A stretch of 64,000 nt of DNA from positions 62,001-126,000 of the forward strand of contig CALXNZ010000002.1 in assembly GCA_944389885.1 (NCBI GenBank). The letters are read 5' to 3'. Positions 36,147-47,308 of this stretch are shown one piece after another (position 1 is the first letter of the stretch; each line of letters begins with the position of its first letter). A program made the translations under genes and the position numbers. The notes under the pieces are model-generated. The model searched no databases. It was not told the DNA's origin and was given only the letters and a program-made list of their open reading frames with translations. Origin of the DNA: an uncultured Opitutales bacterium. Its GTDB lineage: Bacteria > Verrucomicrobiota > Verrucomicrobiia > Opitutales > Intestinicryptomonadaceae.

Positions 36147-36624
36147 GAGAGTCAACACAAAAAGCGGGAAAAGTTCAAGAGCGGAGAATTGCAATAAGAA
36201 GCCCCTGCTCCTTGAATTCTTGCAGACCCACAAATTGGATCATCCCACTGCGGATAAAATATATTCGTCGATGCGAGAGCTATATCCCCGCATAAGCCTT
36301 GGAACGGTTTACAGAAACTTGAATGCCCTTGCCCGAGAAGGCAAAATCTTAAAGATAGAAAACCCTTTTTCCCCTTCCCGCTTTGACTTTAGGACAATTC
36401 CACATTTGCACATATTCTGTAAAAAATGCGGGAAGATATTTGACATTTCCCAAGAAGTATCAAAATATATAATAAAATACTTGCCGCAAGGATTCGCGTT
36501 AGACGATTTGCAAATTTGCGCATCCGGGCTATGCCCGTCATGCTCGAGTAAAATAAATAATTCTTCAACAAAACAAACCACGAAAGGAAAACGACATGGC
36601 AACACTAAAAGGAACAAAAACTGA
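36145..36624 (+). CDS. perR: Fur-family regulator, PerR-like
   Basis: The 159-residue protein is a Fur-family metalloregulator. The winged-helix part has [20 protein letters not shown] and [16 protein letters not shown]. The dimerisation domain has [20 protein letters not shown], with the metal-site Asp and His residues of PerR, and two CxxC zinc pairs (CKKC and CPSC). Co-transcription with rubrerythrin points to PerR (peroxide sensing through iron) over Fur or Zur. The start codon overlaps a 19-bp inverted repeat and has no Shine-Dalgarno, so it may be leaderless or autoregulated. The last 29 bases overlap the rubrerythrin gene; the Lys/Asn-rich tail is read from its ribosome-binding region. 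Confidence 0.85.
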
Positions 36625-37171
36625 AAAGAATCTGATGTCGGCATTTGCCGGCGAATCCCAGGCCCGAAACAGGTACACATTCTACGCAAGCATAGCCAAA
36701 AAGGAGGGCTATGAACAGATATCGGGAATATTTCTCGAAACTGCCGACAATGAGAAGGAACATGCCAAACGCTTCTTCAAGCTGCTCGGCCAGGTTGGAG
36801 ACGTGGAAATAACGGGCGCATTCCCGAGCGGATTGGGAAATACTATGGAAAACCTCGAAGCCGCTGCTAAAGGGGAGCATGAAGAATGGTCTGACCTTTA
36901 CGAGCGTTTTGCAAAAGAGGCGTCCGAGGAGGGCTTTGAAGAGGTTGCAACCGTATTTAGGAAGGTCGCCGAAGTCGAGCAACACCACGAAATGCGTTAT
37001 CGCAAACTTCTCGAAAATCTGACAAATGGAAGCGTCTTCAAAAAGCCCGAACCCATAAAGTGGAAGTGCCGCAACTGCGGATTCGTATTCACTGGAGAAG
37101 AAGCTCCGGAAAAATGTCCGGCATGCGCCCACCCGAAGGCTTATTTCGAAATCCTTGCGGACAATTTCTAA
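36596..37171 (+). CDS. rbr: Rubrerythrin
   Basis: Rubrerythrin reduces hydrogen peroxide to water at a non-haem diiron site and is a common peroxide defence in anaerobes. The ferritin-like domain has repeated Glu-rich helices ([32 protein letters not shown] and [16 protein letters not shown]). The C-terminal rubredoxin-like domain reads [20 protein letters not shown] followed by [11 protein letters not shown], with its four cysteines intact. The length of 191 residues is typical. AAAGGA precedes the ATG. It follows a PerR-like regulator and ends before a perfect terminator. Confidence 0.95.
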
Positions 37172-37271: not shown

Positions 37272-40200
37272 CTATTCCACCTTGAACTTTACAAAGACCT
37301 TCTTTCCAGATACCGGGAGAGAAACTTTATATATGTTCTCGGATTCGGTTTCGCCGACTTTTACTCCATCTTCCGGACTGTCGAACCACGATACCATATC
37401 ATAGGAATACATTACTCCCACCGACACGTCTTTTACATACTTCCCGACGGGGAATGTCACCTCAAATGCTCCATCGCCGGAGAATTCGTACTTGAAGTTC
37501 GGATTGGAAGCGTAAGTGGTCGGCTTTGATGCGTCGAGGTTGAAGGCGTATCTTTCTATATTGCTTATTCCGTCTCCGAACGGAATTGCTTCCGCGGAAG
37601 CCTCAAGAGAATTTGCCTTGGCCCAATCCGCAAAGCTCTGAGAGACCTCAAGGGTTATAGAATCGGAAATCACGGCGGCATTTGTCGGAGAGGCTGTTTT
37701 TGCGGTCAGCATGCAGCGATAACTTGTCCCGTTGAGAGAATAAGTTGCCGGAGCCACTGTGAGGACGTTTTGAGTTTCGCCGCCCACATCGTTCCACGAG
37801 GAATCACCCGATGCCTGCGACTGCCATTGATACAGGGCATTGGAAGAGGAGCTTACGGAGAATCTCGCGCTTGCTCCCGCCGCCACAGACTGTGTTCCGC
37901 TAATGGCTACTTTTACTATCAGCCTGGCGTCATTGCTGATTACAGAACCGCTTGCATTCGTTGCCGTACAGCGGAACAGCCTGCCGTTATCCGATATTGA
38001 TACGCCCTTAAGCGTAAGGGTTTGAGAGGTTCCACCGGTCACGTCAATCCATCTTCCATCTGAGTCGCTCCATTCAGACCAGTTGTAGCTTATGGGAGTT
38101 TCTCCCGTGACGGAGAATGTAAATGATGCGTCGGAGCCTTCGTATGCCGTTGCGCCCTGCGGTTGCGCGACTATCGCCGGGGGCCACTGTATCTTAAGAG
38201 TCACTTCCGTAGAAGTGGCCGTGGAGCCGGACGGCGGATAGCCCGTGCCGTTAGATATCGTACAGCGATATTTTGAGCCGTTGAGAGAGTAGTCTGAGGT
38301 ATCCACTCTTATATAGTAGTCAGACCCTTCAATATCTTTCCACTCCGATTCCCCTGCCAGCATGCGCTGCCATTTATAGGTAATTGGGCCATCTCCAGCC
38401 ACATGCATTGCAATGACCGCAATTCCTCCTTTGTTAACACTTACAACATTTTCATAAGGAGAAATCGCGACAGTCGCATAAGAGCGCAGCCATATGCTGA
38501 CAGAATAATTTGTTGATGAGCCGTTAGACACTTCGCACATATAATGCGTATTTGCATCTTGGGCGTCCGCTACAACTTCAAGTTCGGCGGCGGTTGCCCC
38601 GGATATCTTCTGCCATGTATTCGTAAGCGGATCGTGAACATACCACTGGAAGGAGGTCGCGTTTTCGACGTCCGCCTTGAGGGTCACAATGCTACCGTCG
38701 TAAGCTTCCACAATACTTGAGTCGCTGTTTACCACTACTTTCTCAACAACGCTCAACAAGGCGGTATCGGAGGTCGCCGTACTTGAAGTAGAGGCGCTTG
38801 ACACCACGCAACGATATGTATTTCCGCTCATTGACAAGTCGACACCCGGTATCGACAAGCGTGAAGAATTTGCCCCGGATATATCTTTCCATGCGTTTCC
38901 AACCGGATCCCACAATTGCCATTGGTAGGAGAGCAAATCTCCTCCGGCCACGACCTCAAACACTGCCGTCGAACCGACTTCAGCGGTCAGGGCTTGCGGA
39001 TGCGAAAGGATCTCGGCCTTACTGGACACCGACAACCATGCGGAACCGGAGGTCGCCGACAGTATGCCGTTGCTATAGACTAAGCACCTAAATGTCACAT
39101 TATCCAATGTACCGTCAACTTTCACATTCACAGTCGAACTTTTATCGCTGCCGTCGGCGGCGGCATAATTGACCCATTCCTTGCCGTTATAATATTGCCA
39201 TTGGTAAGTGATGCCAGAGGATTGTGAAGTCTCCGTCGATATGGAGAACTGAACAGTATCCCCCGTGGTTCCCGACGCTTTTTGAGGTTGGGCGGTTATC
39301 GCAACACTTGCCCCCACTTTGATTGTGGAAGCCGATGAATAAACCGCACCCCCTATGTTGTATATACTATTCTCGGCGCGGGATATTACCACGCAACGGT
39401 ATTTCGCCCCGTTATCGGTAAGCTGAGCTCTCGCGGAATATGTTGCGGCAGTAGCCCCCACTATGTTTTTCCAAGAAGATCCGCCGTCGTAAGAAACCTG
39501 CCATTGATACGAAAGTCCTCCTCCATTTACGCCTATGGACAGGGAGAATCCAGAGCCCTCTACACAGGAAACAGATTCCACAGGCTGGGTGGTTATTATG
39601 GCTGTCGGTTCCACAGTTAATGTCGCCACACTCGAAACCACGCGATTCCATACGAAATTCGACGCTGTCTGATAGGCGTAATACCTATATTGATATCCGT
39701 TCAAATCGTATGTCGCTCTCGATATCGACAAAGTATTTGAATTTGAGCCTAAATCGAACCATGTTTTCCCTCCGTCCGCGGAAGCCTCCCAACCGGAAAC
39801 TACGGCATAAGCAGAATCCCCTTTCGCCGCTGCCGTAAACGATACGTCCCCGTACAATCCTACACTCTTTGAAACAGGATTTTCTGTTATCGACATTGCT
39901 CCAGTTGATACAACAATCATATCCGATGAGAACACATAGCCGCTGCCGTTTATGGCAAAGCATCTGTATTTGCGGAAATCCTGCTCCTCTTTCAAAATTC
40001 CCTCCAGAGTATAGACATTGGAGGTGGCTCCGGATATTGGAGCCCAATCTTTCCATTGTATTTCGCCGTTAACTATATTCACCGTACCGTCGGCATTAGT
40101 GTCCATTTCAGCCATGTACCACTCGTAGCTTATCTCAGCATTGCCGACTACCGTGACAGACAAATCCACATTTGAACCTTCGGCCGCATAATTAGCTCCG

Positions 40201-43200
40201 GCAGTTTCAGCGCTTATCATTGGAGACTGCGTATATGTCATTGTGGCAGTCTGCGAAGCTGCAGAGTAATCCCCCTGTCTTATGCGACAGAAAACCGTTG
40301 TACTCCTCAAAGCCGAAACTTCGTCAGCAGTAAGAGAGAGAGTAGATACATTATCTGTAATAGACTCGGTCTTATATACTCTTCCCCCTGCAATCCATTC
40401 GTATGTTTTTGCTATATTCGACCCTCCGGAAACCTCCACGGTAAATTCAGCAGAATACCCGCCTCCAACTATTATGGACTTAGGATTCGATAGCACCGCA
40501 AATTCGGAATAAACATTAAACATTGCCGCATCAGAAGCTTTAACAGTGTTGCCTCCGTTGCTCACCAGACACCTATAATAGAGTCCTGACGATGGTACCC
40601 CTACCGCATTGTTTATAACGTAAGTAGACGATACTGCGTTTTCGATATCGTTCCATGTGGATTTTCCATCGCTTGAAACTTGCCATTGATATTTAAGTTT
40701 GTCGGCATTGTCGGCAACGACAGTAAACGTGGCGCTTCCACCTACCATAGCCGCAGCATCCTTTGGCTGTTCCGTGATATTTACAGCTATGTCGGGATAA
40801 ACCGACAGCCGCGCGGGATTAGAATATATATAAATTCCCTCCACGCTGCATATCTTGCACCTATACAAATTCCCATTCATCGAGGAATCGGCTTTAAACG
40901 AATACGTCCCGTTCACTTGCCCGGAAATATCCGACCAAGTTTCGCCGTCGTTAGAAGACACCTGCCATTGATACGTTCCCTCGCTGGACAACAATACTAT
41001 AAACTCAGCCTCGTATCCCGTCGTCACAGACTGGTATTCATTTTGATATATTATGGAGAGATCGGTAGCCACTTGCAACACGCTCGCATCTGTGACCGCT
41101 GATCCTATAGATATTGTAATCTTGCATCTGAACGAATCTCCATTCATTGAAGCGGTGATGTCGGAGAGCGTGTAATTGGCCCCCGTAGCTCCGGGTATAT
41201 CAATCCACTCAGCCGTACCGGAAGCTTTGCGCTGCCACTGGTATTCCGCGCCGTCTATCGAATCGACAGAGAACGCAACACTGTCACCAATTTCTACACG
41301 AGGATTGGAAGGCGTTATTTTTGACAGCTCCTGAACGCTCAGCCATATGTCAGATGTTTCTACACTTTGAGCGGCGTTGGATACCACGCACTTATAACGC
41401 GTATTATCGTCTCCGTTTTTGCGGACTTCCTCAACTGTGATGCTCGGAGATGTCTCGTTGCTCAAGGCGAGCCATTTACCGGACGAACTATCAAAGTAGT
41501 ACCATTGATAAGAATCCGCATTTGAGGCGACTACGGTCATTGTGACATCCATTCCGTCGTATATTTCAACAACAGACGGCATTTCCTGTATGGTTATTGG
41601 CTCCAGAACCTTTAACGCATAAGGTTCCGAAAGCCCGACTTTTGATCCGACCGTCACCCGGCAACGGAACAAATTACCATTCATAGAGGAAAGCGCATTT
41701 ATTGTAATCGAACTTAAGGAGGAGGACATATCGCTCCAAGTAGAGCCCCCGTCGGTGGAGGTCTGCCATAAATACGAGGCTCCCGAATACGCCTCTACCG
41801 ACATTGTGAATGGCTGTCCGGCACATGCCGCATCAGCAGAGCCGGAAATCTTTGGAGAAGAGAATACACTCAAATATGCGGAAGCCGTAGTCACAGACAT
41901 TCCATCGTTTGAAATCACGCAACGATATTGTCCGACATCGTCAGAATCCGCCGAAGTCAACGTGAGTGTTGCCGAGGTAGCCCCGGATATATCAACCCAA
42001 GAGTTGCTGGCCTCATCGAATTTCTGCCACTGGTACGAGCCCACTATGCCCGATGCCGATACGCTGAGAACAGCCGAATCACCGGCAAATATTGTAGAGC
42101 TTGAGGGTTGTGAATCTATAGTTATCGAAGCTTCAACATGCAGCCAAACCTCGTCGGAGGAGAAGTTCGATATAAGGTCATTTGAGAGCAAGCATCTGTA
42201 TTTTGTATTTACATTGTCGATTTTACCCATTACGCGAAGAGTTGGCGATGTTTCTCCATTGAGATTCACCCATTTTTCGGTAATAGAATTGAGATACTGC
42301 CATTGATAGGAAGTTGCGCCCGCAACATCTACCGTGAATGTGGCATACTCCCCAGCCTTCACGGTTTGGGAAACCGGCTGCGAGGCTATCTCGATAGACG
42401 GAACGGCTTTAAGGGTCACCGTATTGCTCACCACCGACACTCCGCCGGCCGTACATACGCACGCATACTTTGTGCCGTCCATATCTGTTGAAACAGGAGA
42501 TATGACATACGTTGCGGAGGTTGCTCCGGGAATATCAGCCAAGGAAGACGAACCTTTTGCCATCTGCCATTGATAGGAAACCGCACCCGATGTATTAACT
42601 TTCAAAGTCACAGATTCCCCGGCTACGCCCTCAGGATTCTCGGGCTCTATCGACGGATAAGAATGAACTTTCACGGTCGCGGGAGCGGAAGTCTGAGTAT
42701 AGGCTCCGTTCTTTACCACACATCTGTACTGCGACGCGTCGTCCTCGGAAGCTCCGGGAATCTCATATGTGGGAGAAGTCGCGCCGCTTATGTCAACCCA
42801 CTGGCTGCCTTCCAATTTCTGCCATTGGAAAAGTATGTCGGATCCGGAAGCCGATACGCTGAGAATGATGGAACCGCCTTCAAAAACCTCCACATCTTTA
42901 GGTTGCGAATTCAATGAGACCTCGTCCACAATTTTCACCTGCGCCGACGAAGAATATACGCTGGCTCCGGAATTCGACACCATACAGCGATATAAGTAGT
43001 TTGAGGTAGCATGAGTTGGAGTCACAGTCAGGGAAGCGGAATTTGCCCCATCTATATTTATCCATTTCATTTCCCCTTCAACTTCACGATCTCCTGTATG
43101 GGCCTGTCCGAACACGAACGTGTTCTTCAATTGTCCGCAAGTCGGGCATGTCCAGGTTTCAGGCAATTGATCCCATTCGTTGAAGTCCGTAGTATAATAT

Positions 43201-46200
43201 CCGCAATTTCTGCATATAAGGGCGTCTGAATATATCGGCTCTAATACGGTGCCAACCTCTCCGTCGGAATACTGCCACTGATAAGTTATCGAATCGCCTT
43301 TGGCTTTTACCGACAAGGTATGGGAACCGCCCTCGCCCACTTCCGCTCCGGAAGGATGCTCAAGAATTGTCGCAGGGGTCAGAACCGTCAACCACGCCTG
43401 CGCTACATTCTGAGGATTCGACGTGGTTGAAATACCCATGTAGTTAGACACCACGCACCTAAAGGCGCAATTATCCATGTCGGCAGTGGCCGTAATGCTC
43501 AAGTTGGCGGTTCTATCAGAGGAATCCAAGCCTGAGACATTGCTGAATCCAGTCGGACTCGACGGGTCCGTCTTCTGCCACTGGTAAAGTATTACACCGT
43601 CTTCACATTCCGCCTCGACAGAGAACTTGGCTGTGCGGCCTTCATATACCGTAGTGGGCTGGGCGTGCTTTGTAATAACTACAAGCTTTGAGACATTTAG
43701 CGTTGCTCCGGCCGAAGTCACCGTAGTGTTCGGATTGCTTACTTGGCATCTATAAATGTAGCCATTGTTTTCGTATTCGGCAGATTTTACGGTATACGAC
43801 GAGGAATTTGCCCCCGCAATATCGGTCCAAGTTATGCCGCCGTCCGATGACACTTGCCATTGGTAAGTGAGTCTGCCTCCGTTGACGCGCACGCTGAATG
43901 TGGCCACACCGCTCTCAAGCACGCTGACGGAAGTCGGCTGAACTTCTATGATTGGATATGGGTTGACTGTAAGGGTAGCCTCATTCGACATGCCGGTGGC
44001 AAAGTTGTCGAGTTCGGTTTCGGACTTATAATCCGTGACAAAGCACCTGAACTTATAACCGTTCATGGAGCTTGGAATATCGTTTATGGAATATGAAGAA
44101 GATGTCGCATTCGGAATAGTTTCCCAATTTACGCCGTCCGGAGAGCGTTCCCACTGGTATGTGAGCCTTCCGGTTCCCGACGCCTTTACTGTGAATGTCG
44201 CCGAACCGTACACTCCGACAGTGCAACTCGCCGGATGCTCCAAGAATTCGACCGGAGGATTAACATACAGGTAAACCGCATTTGAGGTGACAGTCCCGAG
44301 ATCGTTGGCCACTTGGCATCTGAATTGATAGCCGTTGCTCACTTCCGTGAGATCTTCGAGCAGGAGGGTGTCTGTAGCCGCGCTGGGATTCTCCGCGGCG
44401 GAAATGTTTACCCATTGGGAATCCGCGTCTATCTTTTTCTGCCACTGGTATTTTAGCGGGTCGAGGCCGCGGGCCACAACTGTAAACGTGGCGTCGTCGC
44501 CGATTTGGGCGTAAACATTGCTCGGCTGCATTGTAATTACAGGCTTATCCTGCAATTGAACCCCTCCGCTCTTAGACTCCGCCTTCTTGATATAGGTGAC
44601 GCCGTCGACAACATAGGTCTGAGTCGCGGTTATCCTGGTGTACCCGTTTCCGTTCGCGTAATCGGTGACATAATCTTTGGGAACGGAGAATATTATTGTC
44701 TGCTCTTCAGCGGTGGTTGTTTGATTGAGAGTGTACAGAGTTCCGTTTCTGGTATATTGCGAATATATCTGATAGACGACAGGCACGCCTCTCACGCCTA
44801 AAATGCTGAATGTATACATCGGCGTTTCGCCCGTCGATATTATGGCGTCCTGCAAATCCAGAAGAATTTGCATATTGTAATAAACTATGAGTTGGGCGCT
44901 TGAGGAGGCGACTTCGCTATTGCCATTGCTCACCAAGCAGCGAATATAATATGGTTGCCCATCATTGAACTTTCCGGTGATAGTAGAACCCACTGTCACA
45001 GAAGTATCCTTTATCAAGAGCACATTGGTATTCGCCCCGGATATGTCGCTCCAAGTAGAGCCGTTTGAAGACATCTGCCAGCGATAATTTACGGCATTTT
45101 CAGCTTCTATATAGAAGTCAGCAACGTCGCCGGTAAGGATTTTCAAGCTTTGCGGCTGTTGCGTGATTATTACGGCTTTTACCACGCTCATCGTAGCGGA
45201 ATTTGAATAGACAACACCGAGAGCGTTGCTAAGTTTACAGCGCACTTTCCAGCCGTTTCTATCGTATGGGGAATCGAGGTTCAGCACCGATGAATTTTCG
45301 CCTTCGAGATCTATCCATGTGACCCCGTCTGTGGAATACTGCCATTGATACTCTATTGCGCCTCCGTCGGCCACAACTGTAAATACTGCCGCGGCATTTT
45401 CCGTGACCTCGGTATTTTCCGGCTGTTGAGTAATCGCTATTTCGGATATTACCCCGAGCACTATTACAGTAGAAATTGCTTCGTTTTCCCCGGTTCCAGC
45501 CACGCATCTGTACCTGTACTTATCCATGTCCGCGGTGGTGACCAGAGAGTATTCTTTCGAGTTGGCCCCTGATATCGCGCTCCAAGTCTTTCCGCTATCT
45601 GTGGATTGCTGCCATTGGATTGGCGTCAGATCGGTATCGGCAAAGAACGTCACTGTCACGCCTATGCCCACTGTGCTCGCGGGAGAAACGGTTATATTAA
45701 ACGAATTTGGAACGTATTCCCAATACTCCTCCGCTTCCTGGGCTCCGGCGCTCCCATTGTATCCGTCGAATTTTATAAAATTAGAATAGTTGGACCCCAA
45801 TTTCTTTTTGAAATATATATGGTCCATACCGGAGACATAGTTTTTAATTATCAGCTCCGCCCCGGCTTCCTCGACAGACGCCGGACAAACGAAATCATCG
45901 AAATATACGTCTTGAGCCAAGTCGTTTTCTCCGAGGTCTATCACGGCCTTTACGGGAGCTTTACCGGCGCGAGACAGCGTCAGAGTCCCGAATATTTGCG
46001 AAGAGCCGTTTAAGTTGAGAGTCCCCGCCAGATTATCTGAATTTATGGGCTTTCTAAAAGTTAAAGCTACTCCATCTCCGATTTGGTCTTGTTCAGCAAA
46101 CTTCACGGAAGCCCCCTGCTCTATTACAAGGGCATTCCCTGACAATGCTTTTGCCCCGCCCGTCTTTGCAAATTCCACGTTTGTAGAAGCTATGATTCTC

Positions 46201-47078
46201 CCTATTCTGTTGCTTGCGGAACCTCCAAAAATCACCGTTGGTTTTTCATATCCCCAATAGTCGGAATCCATTAGTACGACATCCTGCCCGTCGGCAACGA
46301 CGGCTGCATTTATTCTAATATCCCCGCCTTTTGTATATTTTACTACAGTATAGTCGGTGTTCGATGTGCTTGTGGAATCCGTATAATACAGGAACGCCAA
46401 AGAAGAAAATGTCTCGAAAATCAATCCGTTCCCTTCCCCCGCCAACATTGCCGAAGTCAGGGTGCGGCCTTCTGAAAAGAGCAATTCACCCAAGCCCTTG
46501 TTGGAAAAAGTAGCCCTTTGCACGTCACCCAAAACAGACACGTTTACATTGAGGTCGAAGGTATAGCCGGCCAAATATATAAATGATTCCAAAGACGATT
46601 TTTTTATATATCCGCCGTTTTCTCCGCGCTGATTTTGGAAGGCCAAGAGATTTAATCCTTTTTCCACATATTCATCGCCGGAATACAAAGCGAAACTTAT
46701 CGGATAATCGCCCGAAAGTATATAGGGCATAAAGGAGTGGTTTGAGGCCAAATACTGGGTTATCGTCACCGGCCCGCCTCCATCTCCGAGAGCCTCCGCA
46801 ACATCCATATACAGGGTTTCTTCCTTATAAGAGCTCGGTTGGGGCCCGAATTTGACGCGCCACAAGAAGCGTGACGAAAGACCTCCCGGATAAACACCGT
46901 ATTCCCAACGCTCTACTGAACCCCAATATGGCGACGACGATCCGCTGTCATATCCGCTGAGGCGAATGTTCTCAACTACAGTCCTGCTGTCCTGGTCCTG
47001 ATCCTGAGCAAAGGCGCATGAGAATTGAGCCACCATAATGGCCGCAAAAGACAAAATTTTAACTATTTGCATTTTCAT
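37272..47078 (-). CDS. Giant exported Ig-repeat protein with an embedded rubredoxin-like domain
   Basis: This 3268-residue protein begins with a signal peptide (MKMQIVKILSFAAIMVAQFS, cleavage after AFA). An N-terminal beta-rich region of about 450 residues follows. After it come about 27 Ig-like modules of 80-95 residues, each with a core YxWQ and a later YRC (tryptophan and cysteine of the Ig core), and one divergent module near residue 700. In one module the loop after YQWQ is expanded by about 55 residues with CRNCGYY and LPETWTCPTCGQLKNTF: Cys1289-x2-Cys1292 and Cys1311-x2-Cys1314, a compact rubredoxin-like site. The C-terminal domain contains FGDGISNIERYAFNLD, a Ca-binding-like motif. 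There is no PEP-CTERM signal, so the anchor is unknown. The ATG at 47078 starts the signal peptide. Adhesion or surface-layer function is inferred. Confidence 0.85.
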   Translation of the reverse strand: MKMQIVKILSFAAIMVAQFSCAFAQDQDQDSRTVVENIRLSGYDSGSSSPYWGSVERWEYGVYPGGLSSRFLWRVKFGPQPSSYKEETLYMDVAEALGDGGGPVTITQYLASNHSFMPYILSGDYPISFALYSGDEYVEKGLNLLAFQNQRGENGGYIKKSSLESFIYLAGYTFDLNVNVSVLGDVQRATFSNKGLGELLFSEGRTLTSAMLAGEGNGLIFETFSSLAFLYYTDSTSTSNTDYTVVKYTKGGDIRINAAVVADGQDVVLMDSDYWGYEKPTVIFGGSASNRIGRIIASTNVEFAKTGGAKALSGNALVIEQGASVKFAEQDQIGDGVALTFRKPINSDNLAGTLNLNGSSQIFGTLTLSRAGKAPVKAVIDLGENDLAQDVYFDDFVCPASVEEAGAELIIKNYVSGMDHIYFKKKLGSNYSNFIKFDGYNGSAGAQEAEEYWEYVPNSFNITVSPASTVGIGVTVTFFADTDLTPIQWQQSTDSGKTWSAISGANSKEYSLVTTADMDKYRYRCVAGTGENEAISTVIVLGVISEIAITQQPENTEVTENAAAVFTVVADGGAIEYQWQYSTDGVTWIDLEGENSSVLNLDSPYDRNGWKVRCKLSNALGVVYSNSATMSVVKAVIITQQPQSLKILTGDVADFYIEAENAVNYRWQMSSNGSTWSDISGANTNVLLIKDTSVTVGSTITGKFNDGQPYYIRCLVSNGNSEVASSSAQLIVYYNMQILLDLQDAIISTGETPMYTFSILGVRGVPVVYQIYSQYTRNGTLYTLNQTTTAEEQTIIFSVPKDYVTDYANGNGYTRITATQTYVVDGVTYIKKAESKSGGVQLQDKPVITMQPSNVYAQIGDDATFTVVARGLDPLKYQWQKKIDADSQWVNISAAENPSAATDTLLLEDLTEVSNGYQFRCQVANDLGTVTSNAVYLYVNPPVEFLEHPASCTVGVYGSATFTVKASGTGRLTYQWERSPDGVNWETIPNATSSSYSINDIPSSMNGYKFRCFVTDYKSETELDNFATGMSNEATLTVNPYPIIEVQPTSVSVLESGVATFSVRVNGGRLTYQWQVSSDGGITWTDIAGANSSSYTVKSAEYENNGYIYRCQVSNPNTTVTSAGATLNVSKLVVITKHAQPTTVYEGRTAKFSVEAECEDGVILYQWQKTDPSSPTGFSNVSGLDSSDRTANLSITATADMDNCAFRCVVSNYMGISTTSNPQNVAQAWLTVLTPATILEHPSGAEVGEGGSHTLSVKAKGDSITYQWQYSDGEVGTVLEPIYSDALICRNCGYYTTDFNEWDQLPETWTCPTCGQLKNTFVFGQAHTGDREVEGEMKWINIDGANSASLTVTPTHATSNYLYRCMVSNSGASVYSSSAQVKIVDEVSLNSQPKDVEVFEGGSIILSVSASGSDILFQWQKLEGSQWVDISGATSPTYEIPGASEDDASQYRCVVKNGAYTQTSAPATVKVHSYPSIEPENPEGVAGESVTLKVNTSGAVSYQWQMAKGSSSLADIPGATSATYVISPVSTDMDGTKYACVCTAGGVSVVSNTVTLKAVPSIEIASQPVSQTVKAGEYATFTVDVAGATSYQWQYLNSITEKWVNLNGETSPTLRVMGKIDNVNTKYRCLLSNDLISNFSSDEVWLHVEASITIDSQPSSSTIFAGDSAVLSVSASGIVGSYQWQKFDEASNSWVDISGATSATLTLTSADSDDVGQYRCVISNDGMSVTTASAYLSVFSSPKISGSADAACAGQPFTMSVEAYSGASYLWQTSTDGGSTWSDMSSSLSSITINALSSMNGNLFRCRVTVGSKVGLSEPYALKVLEPITIQEMPSVVEIYDGMDVTMTVVASNADSYQWYYFDSSSGKWLALSNETSPSITVEEVRKNGDDNTRYKCVVSNAAQSVETSDIWLSVQELSKITPSNPRVEIGDSVAFSVDSIDGAEYQWQRKASGTAEWIDIPGATGANYTLSDITASMNGDSFRCKITISIGSAVTDASVLQVATDLSIIYQNEYQSVTTGYEAEFIVLLSSEGTYQWQVSSNDGETWSDISGQVNGTYSFKADSSMNGNLYRCKICSVEGIYIYSNPARLSVYPDIAVNITEQPKDAAAMVGGSATFTVVADNADKLKYQWQVSSDGKSTWNDIENAVSSTYVINNAVGVPSSGLYYRCLVSNGGNTVKASDAAMFNVYSEFAVLSNPKSIIVGGGYSAEFTVEVSGGSNIAKTYEWIAGGRVYKTESITDNVSTLSLTADEVSALRSTTVFCRIRQGDYSAASQTATMTYTQSPMISAETAGANYAAEGSNVDLSVTVVGNAEISYEWYMAEMDTNADGTVNIVNGEIQWKDWAPISGATSNVYTLEGILKEEQDFRKYRCFAINGSGYVFSSDMIVVSTGAMSITENPVSKSVGLYGDVSFTAAAKGDSAYAVVSGWEASADGGKTWFDLGSNSNTLSISRATYDLNGYQYRYYAYQTASNFVWNRVVSSVATLTVEPTAIITTQPVESVSCVEGSGFSLSIGVNGGGLSYQWQVSYDGGSSWKNIVGATAATYSARAQLTDNGAKYRCVVISRAENSIYNIGGAVYSSASTIKVGASVAITAQPQKASGTTGDTVQFSISTETSQSSGITYQWQYYNGKEWVNYAAADGSDKSSTVNVKVDGTLDNVTFRCLVYSNGILSATSGSAWLSVSSKAEILSHPQALTAEVGSTAVFEVVAGGDLLSYQWQLWDPVGNAWKDISGANSSRLSIPGVDLSMSGNTYRCVVSSASTSSTATSDTALLSVVEKVVVNSDSSIVEAYDGSIVTLKADVENATSFQWYVHDPLTNTWQKISGATAAELEVVADAQDANTHYMCEVSNGSSTNYSVSIWLRSYATVAISPYENVVSVNKGGIAVIAMHVAGDGPITYKWQRMLAGESEWKDIEGSDYYIRVDTSDYSLNGSKYRCTISNGTGYPPSGSTATSTEVTLKIQWPPAIVAQPQGATAYEGSDASFTFSVTGETPISYNWSEWSDSDGRWIDVTGGTSQTLTLKGVSISDNGRLFRCTATNASGSVISNDARLIVKVAISGTQSVAAGASARFSVSSSSNALYQWQSQASGDSSWNDVGGETQNVLTVAPATYSLNGTSYRCMLTAKTASPTNAAVISDSITLEVSQSFADWAKANSLEASAEAIPFGDGISNIERYAFNLDASKPTTYASNPNFKYEFSGDGAFEVTFPVGKYVKDVSVGVMYSYDMVSWFDSPEDGVKVGETESENIYKVSLPVSGKKVFVKFKVE
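43064..43250 (-). other. Rubredoxin-like insertion within an Ig module
   Basis: This segment of the giant gene encodes the rubredoxin-like insert. It sits between YQWQYSDG and MKWINIDGANSASL, where other modules have only a four-to-six-residue turn (for example YSTDGVTWIDLEG), which places it in the C-C' loop of the Ig fold. The two CxxC pairs are 18 residues apart, against about 29 in classical rubredoxins; the W(T)CPxCG(x)2K(x)2F end is nearly canonical. It would bind iron or zinc outside the cytoplasm. Confidence 0.8.
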
Positions 47079-47130
47079 CTTGTAATAAAATTGTGCAATG
47101 TGAGGGGTATATGTCCGAAATACCGCGCAA

Positions 47131-47140
47131 CGCATATGCG
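47131..47140. promoter_or_regulatory. Palindrome in the divergent promoter region
   Basis: CGCATATGCG is a perfect 10-bp palindrome, with wider partial symmetry (CGCGCA...TGCGCG), in the 230-base region between the giant gene and the ExbB/TolQ-like gene. It is a candidate operator, but such a short palindrome may be chance. Confidence 0.3.
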
Positions 47141-47308
47141 CGTCTATCGAAAATCTTTGCATTCTATCCTAAGTTTAAACCGCATTTCGTCAACTTTTTA
47201 TTGAAGCTAATTTATCAAGAATTTGCCTGCGATATTTGTGGAAAAATCGTTAAAAAATCTGAAAATAATCTGGCTTTTTCCAAGTCTTCACAATTACATA
47301 TTAAATGT

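Follow-up and report, generated by a model that had tools for sequence, protein, structure and literature searches.

Rubredoxins are normally cytoplasmic and occur as stand-alone proteins or as terminal domains; the gap between their two CxxC knuckles is 29 residues in the classical type, and their sites bind metal very tightly. The described systems closest to the locus reported here are the short-loop rubredoxins (PF00301; PDB 1spw, 6rxn and 6nw0/6nw1), the C-terminal domain of rubrerythrin (PF21349), the Ig-repeat proteins (I-set, Ig_3) of bacteria and phages, and the engineered CCR5-rubredoxin (PDB 4mbs), in which a rubredoxin was placed within a loop of the host protein as a man-made crystallisation aid. 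The stretch of DNA analysed in this study (the window; 64,000 nucleotides from an uncultured Opitutales bacterium) encodes a giant Ig-repeat protein in which one Ig module carries, by homology, a short rubredoxin as a natural guest. Both domains are known; their arrangement is new and has so far been found in two genomes. No report of a natural rubredoxin in an Ig repeat, or of a rubredoxin in Opitutales, was found in literature searches, which is not proof of absence.

Screening of the whole protein with hmmscan gave matches to Ig_3 (E 5.7e-70) and I-set (E 5.1e-46), and about 27 Ig modules were resolved with a module HMM built in this study. The module that hosts the insert has the same fold as those of the bacterial and phage Ig-repeat proteins. 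The probable start is Met29 of the open reading frame, at position 47078, which would give a protein of 3268 residues. When inspected by eye, the N-terminus was hydrophobic and signal-like, with an A-x-A motif, and the same was observed at this place in two orthologs, which open with the signal-like peptides MKKFLF... and MKKLLL... (G007 and G013, respectively). The features of the gene and of the insert are presented in Table 1.

Table 1. Features of the giant Ig-repeat gene and of its rubredoxin insert (window coordinates; residues counted from the start of the full open reading frame).
Feature	Position	Strand	Residues	Basis
Giant, probably exported Ig-repeat protein	37272..47162	-	3296-residue ORF	ORF, Pfam domains and module HMM
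Probable Sec signal peptide, MKMQIVKILSFAAIMVAQFSCAFA followed by Q	47007..47078	-	29-52	read by eye
Host Ig module, split by the insert	42924..43376	-	1263-1413	two module-HMM half-matches (1263-1308 and 1359-1413); intact Ig fold in AlphaFold2
Whole insert between the C and C' strands	43071..43259 (about)	-	1302-1364	alignment with the insert-free G013 ortholog and with sister modules
Rubredoxin domain, SDALICRNCGYYTTDFNEWDQLPETWTCPTCGQLKNTF	43116..43229	-	1312-1349	Pfam and PDB-chain matches
First knuckle, CRNC	43203..43214	-	Cys1317 and Cys1320	sequence
Second knuckle, CPTC	43137..43148	-	Cys1339 and Cys1342	sequence
Outgoing stalk strand (predicted)	43212..43256	-	1303-1317 (model 43-57)	AlphaFold2 on alignment A5, DSSP E43-57
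Returning stalk strand (predicted)	43068..43118	-	1349-1365 (model 89-105)	AlphaFold2 on alignment A5, DSSP E89-105; breaks up in the A4 model

The initial annotation had located a rubredoxin-like insertion in the C-C' loop of a single Ig module, and its coordinates and description of the sequence were right; the cysteines it numbered 1289, 1292, 1311 and 1314, counting from Met29, are Cys1317, Cys1320, Cys1339 and Cys1342 of the full open reading frame. The insert of about 63 residues is flanked by YQWQYSDG (1294-1301) and MKWINIDG (1365-1372), and separates YQWQ (1294-1297) of strand C from KWINI (1366-1370) of strand C'. As a result the distance between the C and C' tryptophans is 71 in this module, compared with 8-12 in nearly all sister modules. 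The GC content of the insert was similar to that of the rest of the giant gene. The initial annotation was right that a single module carries the rubredoxin, although loop insertion as such is not confined to that module. A second module has a lengthened C-C' loop (window 40050-40121, residues 2348-2371, AEMDTNADGTVNIVNGEIQW), in which the tryptophans W2348 and W2370 are 22 apart, with about 12 extra residues; this loop resembles a calcium-binding DxNxDG loop. Another Ig-repeat protein, L006 (G009 C15), has a long acidic stretch with DADGNGIADNLE inside one module, a possible metal-binding insert.

The similarity of the two CxxC pairs to the rubredoxin consensus exceeded chance, as judged from Pfam scores on either side of the cut-off, from matches over the whole domain to PDB chains and from the presence of the domain in a second genome. 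Searches of PDB chains with phmmer gave end-to-end alignments, both knuckles included, between the insert and solved rubredoxins of the short type (1spw, E 1.8e-5; 6nw1, E 2.8e-5; 6rxn, E 3.7e-5; and also 6nw0, within the E range 2e-5 to 4e-5). The Pfam Rubredoxin model (PF00301) matched the window insert with 26.6 bits in the search of its own genome (cut-off 23), the match covering only positions 27-47, in the C-terminal half, and with 19.7 bits (E 8.9e-4), under the cut-off, in the hmmscan of the whole protein. The insert of the second genome scored 32.6 bits, over the cut-off. The insert has the C-x2-C-G-Y ... L-P-x-x-W-x-C-P-x-C-G-x-x-K-x-x-F pattern and short linker of the short-loop rubredoxins, from which it differs in being a guest within the Ig module of a protein predicted to be exported, in its gap of 18 residues and in having a threonine in place of the second conserved core tyrosine. 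This gap, called unusually short in the initial annotation, is short beside the classical type, but it is near that of the genus rubredoxin domains (19-21) and of others (22) and longer than that of 1spw (16). The rubrerythrin-type domain, including that of the rubrerythrin encoded next to the giant gene (36596-37171), shares two CxxC knuckles and a short linker with the insert, but its linker has 12 residues and it aligned poorly to the insert. The insert scored below the family cut-off of PF21349 (14.6 bits against 26.5). On the strength of these alignments, homology is well supported and the insert is considered a genuine short rubredoxin domain.

Nearly every genome of the genus yielded rubredoxins. 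Among the closer genus matches to the insert (39% identity) is the short N-terminal rubredoxin, with a gap of 21, of a 603-residue TPP-dependent enzyme with acetolactate-synthase-like domains in the window genome (G000 C7:71683-71796, L073:1495-3303); this rubredoxin is terminal and belongs to a predicted cytoplasmic enzyme, whereas the insert is an internal guest. A direct origin of the insert from this genus rubredoxin was not backed by the tree. Rubredoxin-matching open reading frames of 595-654 codons are present in most genomes of the genus, the TPP domains having been checked in the window genome only. Two tandem short rubredoxins precede a glutamate-synthase-type domain, as judged by eye, in unrelated metagenome-assembled genomes (L046:198-1817 and L059:8027-9628), and two adjacent rubredoxin genes or domains are present at G008 C6:41423-41742.

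AlphaFold2 was run on 153 residues with two alignments, one containing Ig rows (A5) and one containing rubredoxin rows (A4). The A5 model (mean pLDDT 91.9, pTM 0.68) had a complete Ig core, from which the C and C' strands extended as a two-stranded stalk bearing the insert as a compact tip. The A4 model (pLDDT 80.1) had the same secondary structure at the tip, with a stalk that was partly of low confidence. Disruption of the Ig core, the outcome named beforehand as speaking against the proposed reading, was not predicted: the modelled Ig part superimposed on 3bfo with a Z score of 13.5 and an rmsd of 1.5 A over 83 residues. Because Ig domains took up the Foldseek and VIA-align lists, the missing rubredoxin rows in them are uninformative. 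Two further alignments, A3 and A6 (MAFFT, with many Ig modules and many rubredoxins), were left out because they misplaced the C' strand onto the W-x-x-L-P motif. The existence of engineered rubredoxins in receptor loops, known from PDB entries, indicates that such an arrangement is structurally feasible.

A search for the same architecture in relatives, as proposed in the initial annotation, did find it, but in only 2 of the 373 genomes of the order, as earlier among 54 relatives: the window genome (G000) and G007, a second species of the genus. When a collection covering 84,980 species was scanned by motif, no further locus with both parts was found. Among the bacterial and phage Ig-repeat proteins no rubredoxin guest was seen outside these two genomes; the phylum-wide rubredoxin search listed its strongest matches only, so that weakly matching long frames might have escaped it. 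Long but weak matches in other Verrucomicrobia and in Bacteroidales (L049, L051, L052 and L061-L064) proved to be ordinary Ig repeats that lack paired CxxC motifs.

The giant proteins of the window genome, G007 and a third ortholog, G013, shared 34-37% identity across about 3100 residues, with alignment module by module. In G007 the rubredoxin occupies the same module and the neighbouring modules also align, whereas the matching module of G013 has an ordinary loop, STDGGQS, and no rubredoxin. Loss of the four cysteines in homologues, which the initial annotation had named as a refutation, was examined with a mixed outcome: all four are kept in the only insert-bearing ortholog, but nine residues (ITDSNSGTT) within the first pair turn it into C-x11-C and could disrupt the G007 site, and G013 has no such domain. 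In a small tree of 38-50 columns, which is weak evidence and from which the nine G007 residues were excluded, the two inserts clustered with a local support of 0.95, and the window insert showed long divergence. This clustering fits one insertion event, with loss or absence in G013. Ten of the 11 signature columns were the same in both inserts and in the consensus, against seven of the 27 other columns being the same between the inserts (Fisher p 3.5e-4); this value is indicative only, as the pattern used to gather the reference set had itself fixed part of the signature columns. Retention of the signature while the rest drifted speaks for selection on the fold once the domain had been inserted.

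On the N-terminal side of the giant gene the window contains TolQ/ExbB-, TolR/ExbD- and TonB/TolA-like genes. Genes similar in sequence adjoin the orthologs, and only this side of the neighbourhood looks shared. The downstream side contains the rubrerythrin gene, a PerR/Fur-family regulator and a ZupT-like zinc transporter. On the corresponding side, the G007 ortholog is accompanied by QRPTase, inositol monophosphatase and Lpt genes, and the G013 ortholog by Sel1-repeat and PilM genes. The rubrerythrin/PerR pair, whose proximity had been pointed out in the initial annotation, is thus not beside the gene in either ortholog, and the redox neighbourhood is not tied to the insert; a functional link of the insert to PerR, rubrerythrin or ZupT was rejected.

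Searches for DsbA, DsbB and VKOR gave no match in any of the 14 genus members, whereas the controls were detected; one of the 14, G010, yielded nothing in any of the searches and may be atypical. The giant, probably exported proteins have 39-51 cysteines each, mostly one per Ig module, and in most modules this single cysteine has no partner. Since no disulfide-forming enzyme of these types was detected and the modules mostly have one cysteine, exported cysteines are probably not routinely oxidised in the genus. It is therefore plausible that a Cys4 metal site stays reduced outside the cytoplasm.

From these observations we infer that the insert is occupied by a metal, that it lies at the surface and that it has a structural or binding function. 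The reading preferred here, with a probability slightly above even, is that of a metal-stabilised rubredoxin guest at the tip of a stalk on a secreted or surface Ig fibre, where it would act as a structural or binding knob. A single insertion event, in an ancestor common to the window genome and G007, would have placed a short rubredoxin in the C-C' loop of one of the Ig modules. The domain would fold on its own at the tip of the two-stranded stalk, which consists of extensions of the C and C' strands, and one metal ion, zinc or iron, would be held by the four cysteines, as suggested by their conservation. The compact knob would then project from the fibre and alter the surface that the fibre presents. 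A knob or binding role is most likely its main job, an argument made from context and by exclusion. The main rival is that the insert is a passenger, a rubredoxin fragment that landed in a permissive loop and was tolerated without function. The W2348 to W2370 module indeed suggests that the C-C' loop tolerates another insert, and the rubredoxin is missing in one ortholog and altered differently in its two carriers; preferential retention of the signature in both lineages after long divergence is not what neutral decay would give, even with the p-value taken as indicative only, and a passenger is considered unlikely.

A working extracellular or periplasmic iron rubredoxin, serving as a one-electron carrier or oxidant scavenger on the surface of an anaerobe, would agree with the four cysteines and most of the signature being kept in both inserts, with the frequency of rubredoxins in the genus and with the rubrerythrin and PerR-like genes adjoining the window gene. 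It is nevertheless rather improbable, as no redox partner domain was among the domains matched in the giant protein by hmmscan, the rubrerythrin/PerR pair is not conserved beside the orthologs, one ortholog lacks the domain and the nine-residue insertion in the G007 knuckle would disturb the NH-S network. The patchy presence, the long divergence of the window insert, the altered G007 knuckle and the lack of a conserved redox neighbour together disfavour an essential redox role. A little less probable again is the bolder version in which a natural redox-active rubredoxin on the surface fibre of an anaerobic member of the Opitutales lineage moves electrons or quenches oxidants outside the cell, enabled by an envelope without disulfide-forming enzymes. 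Metal sensing or buffering at the surface, with the site loading or losing zinc or iron and thereby changing adhesion, is very unlikely: a Cys4 site is predicted, and the ZupT-like transporter and the Fur/PerR-family gene lie downstream in the window, but conservation of the insert does not extend to these neighbours, and the tight metal binding of rubredoxin sites suits structure better than sensing. The lowest probability of all is given to disulfides formed by the four cysteines, either within the insert or as crosslinks between fibres. CxxC pairs in a probably exported protein might suggest them, but the rubredoxin signature extends beyond the cysteines, DsbA, DsbB and VKOR were not detected in the 14 genus genomes, and most Ig modules have a single partnerless cysteine. 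The specific redox, sensing and crosslinking roles put forward in the initial annotation were unsupported.

The insert, together with the missing Dsb enzymes, raises the question of whether cysteine sites that are reduced and loaded with metal are maintained in the envelope by anaerobes of this group. The natural insert mirrors the rubredoxins that engineers have placed in receptor loops. As a guest insertion in an Ig loop on the exported side, it would indicate that a secreted adhesin-like fibre can accommodate a Cys4 metal domain.
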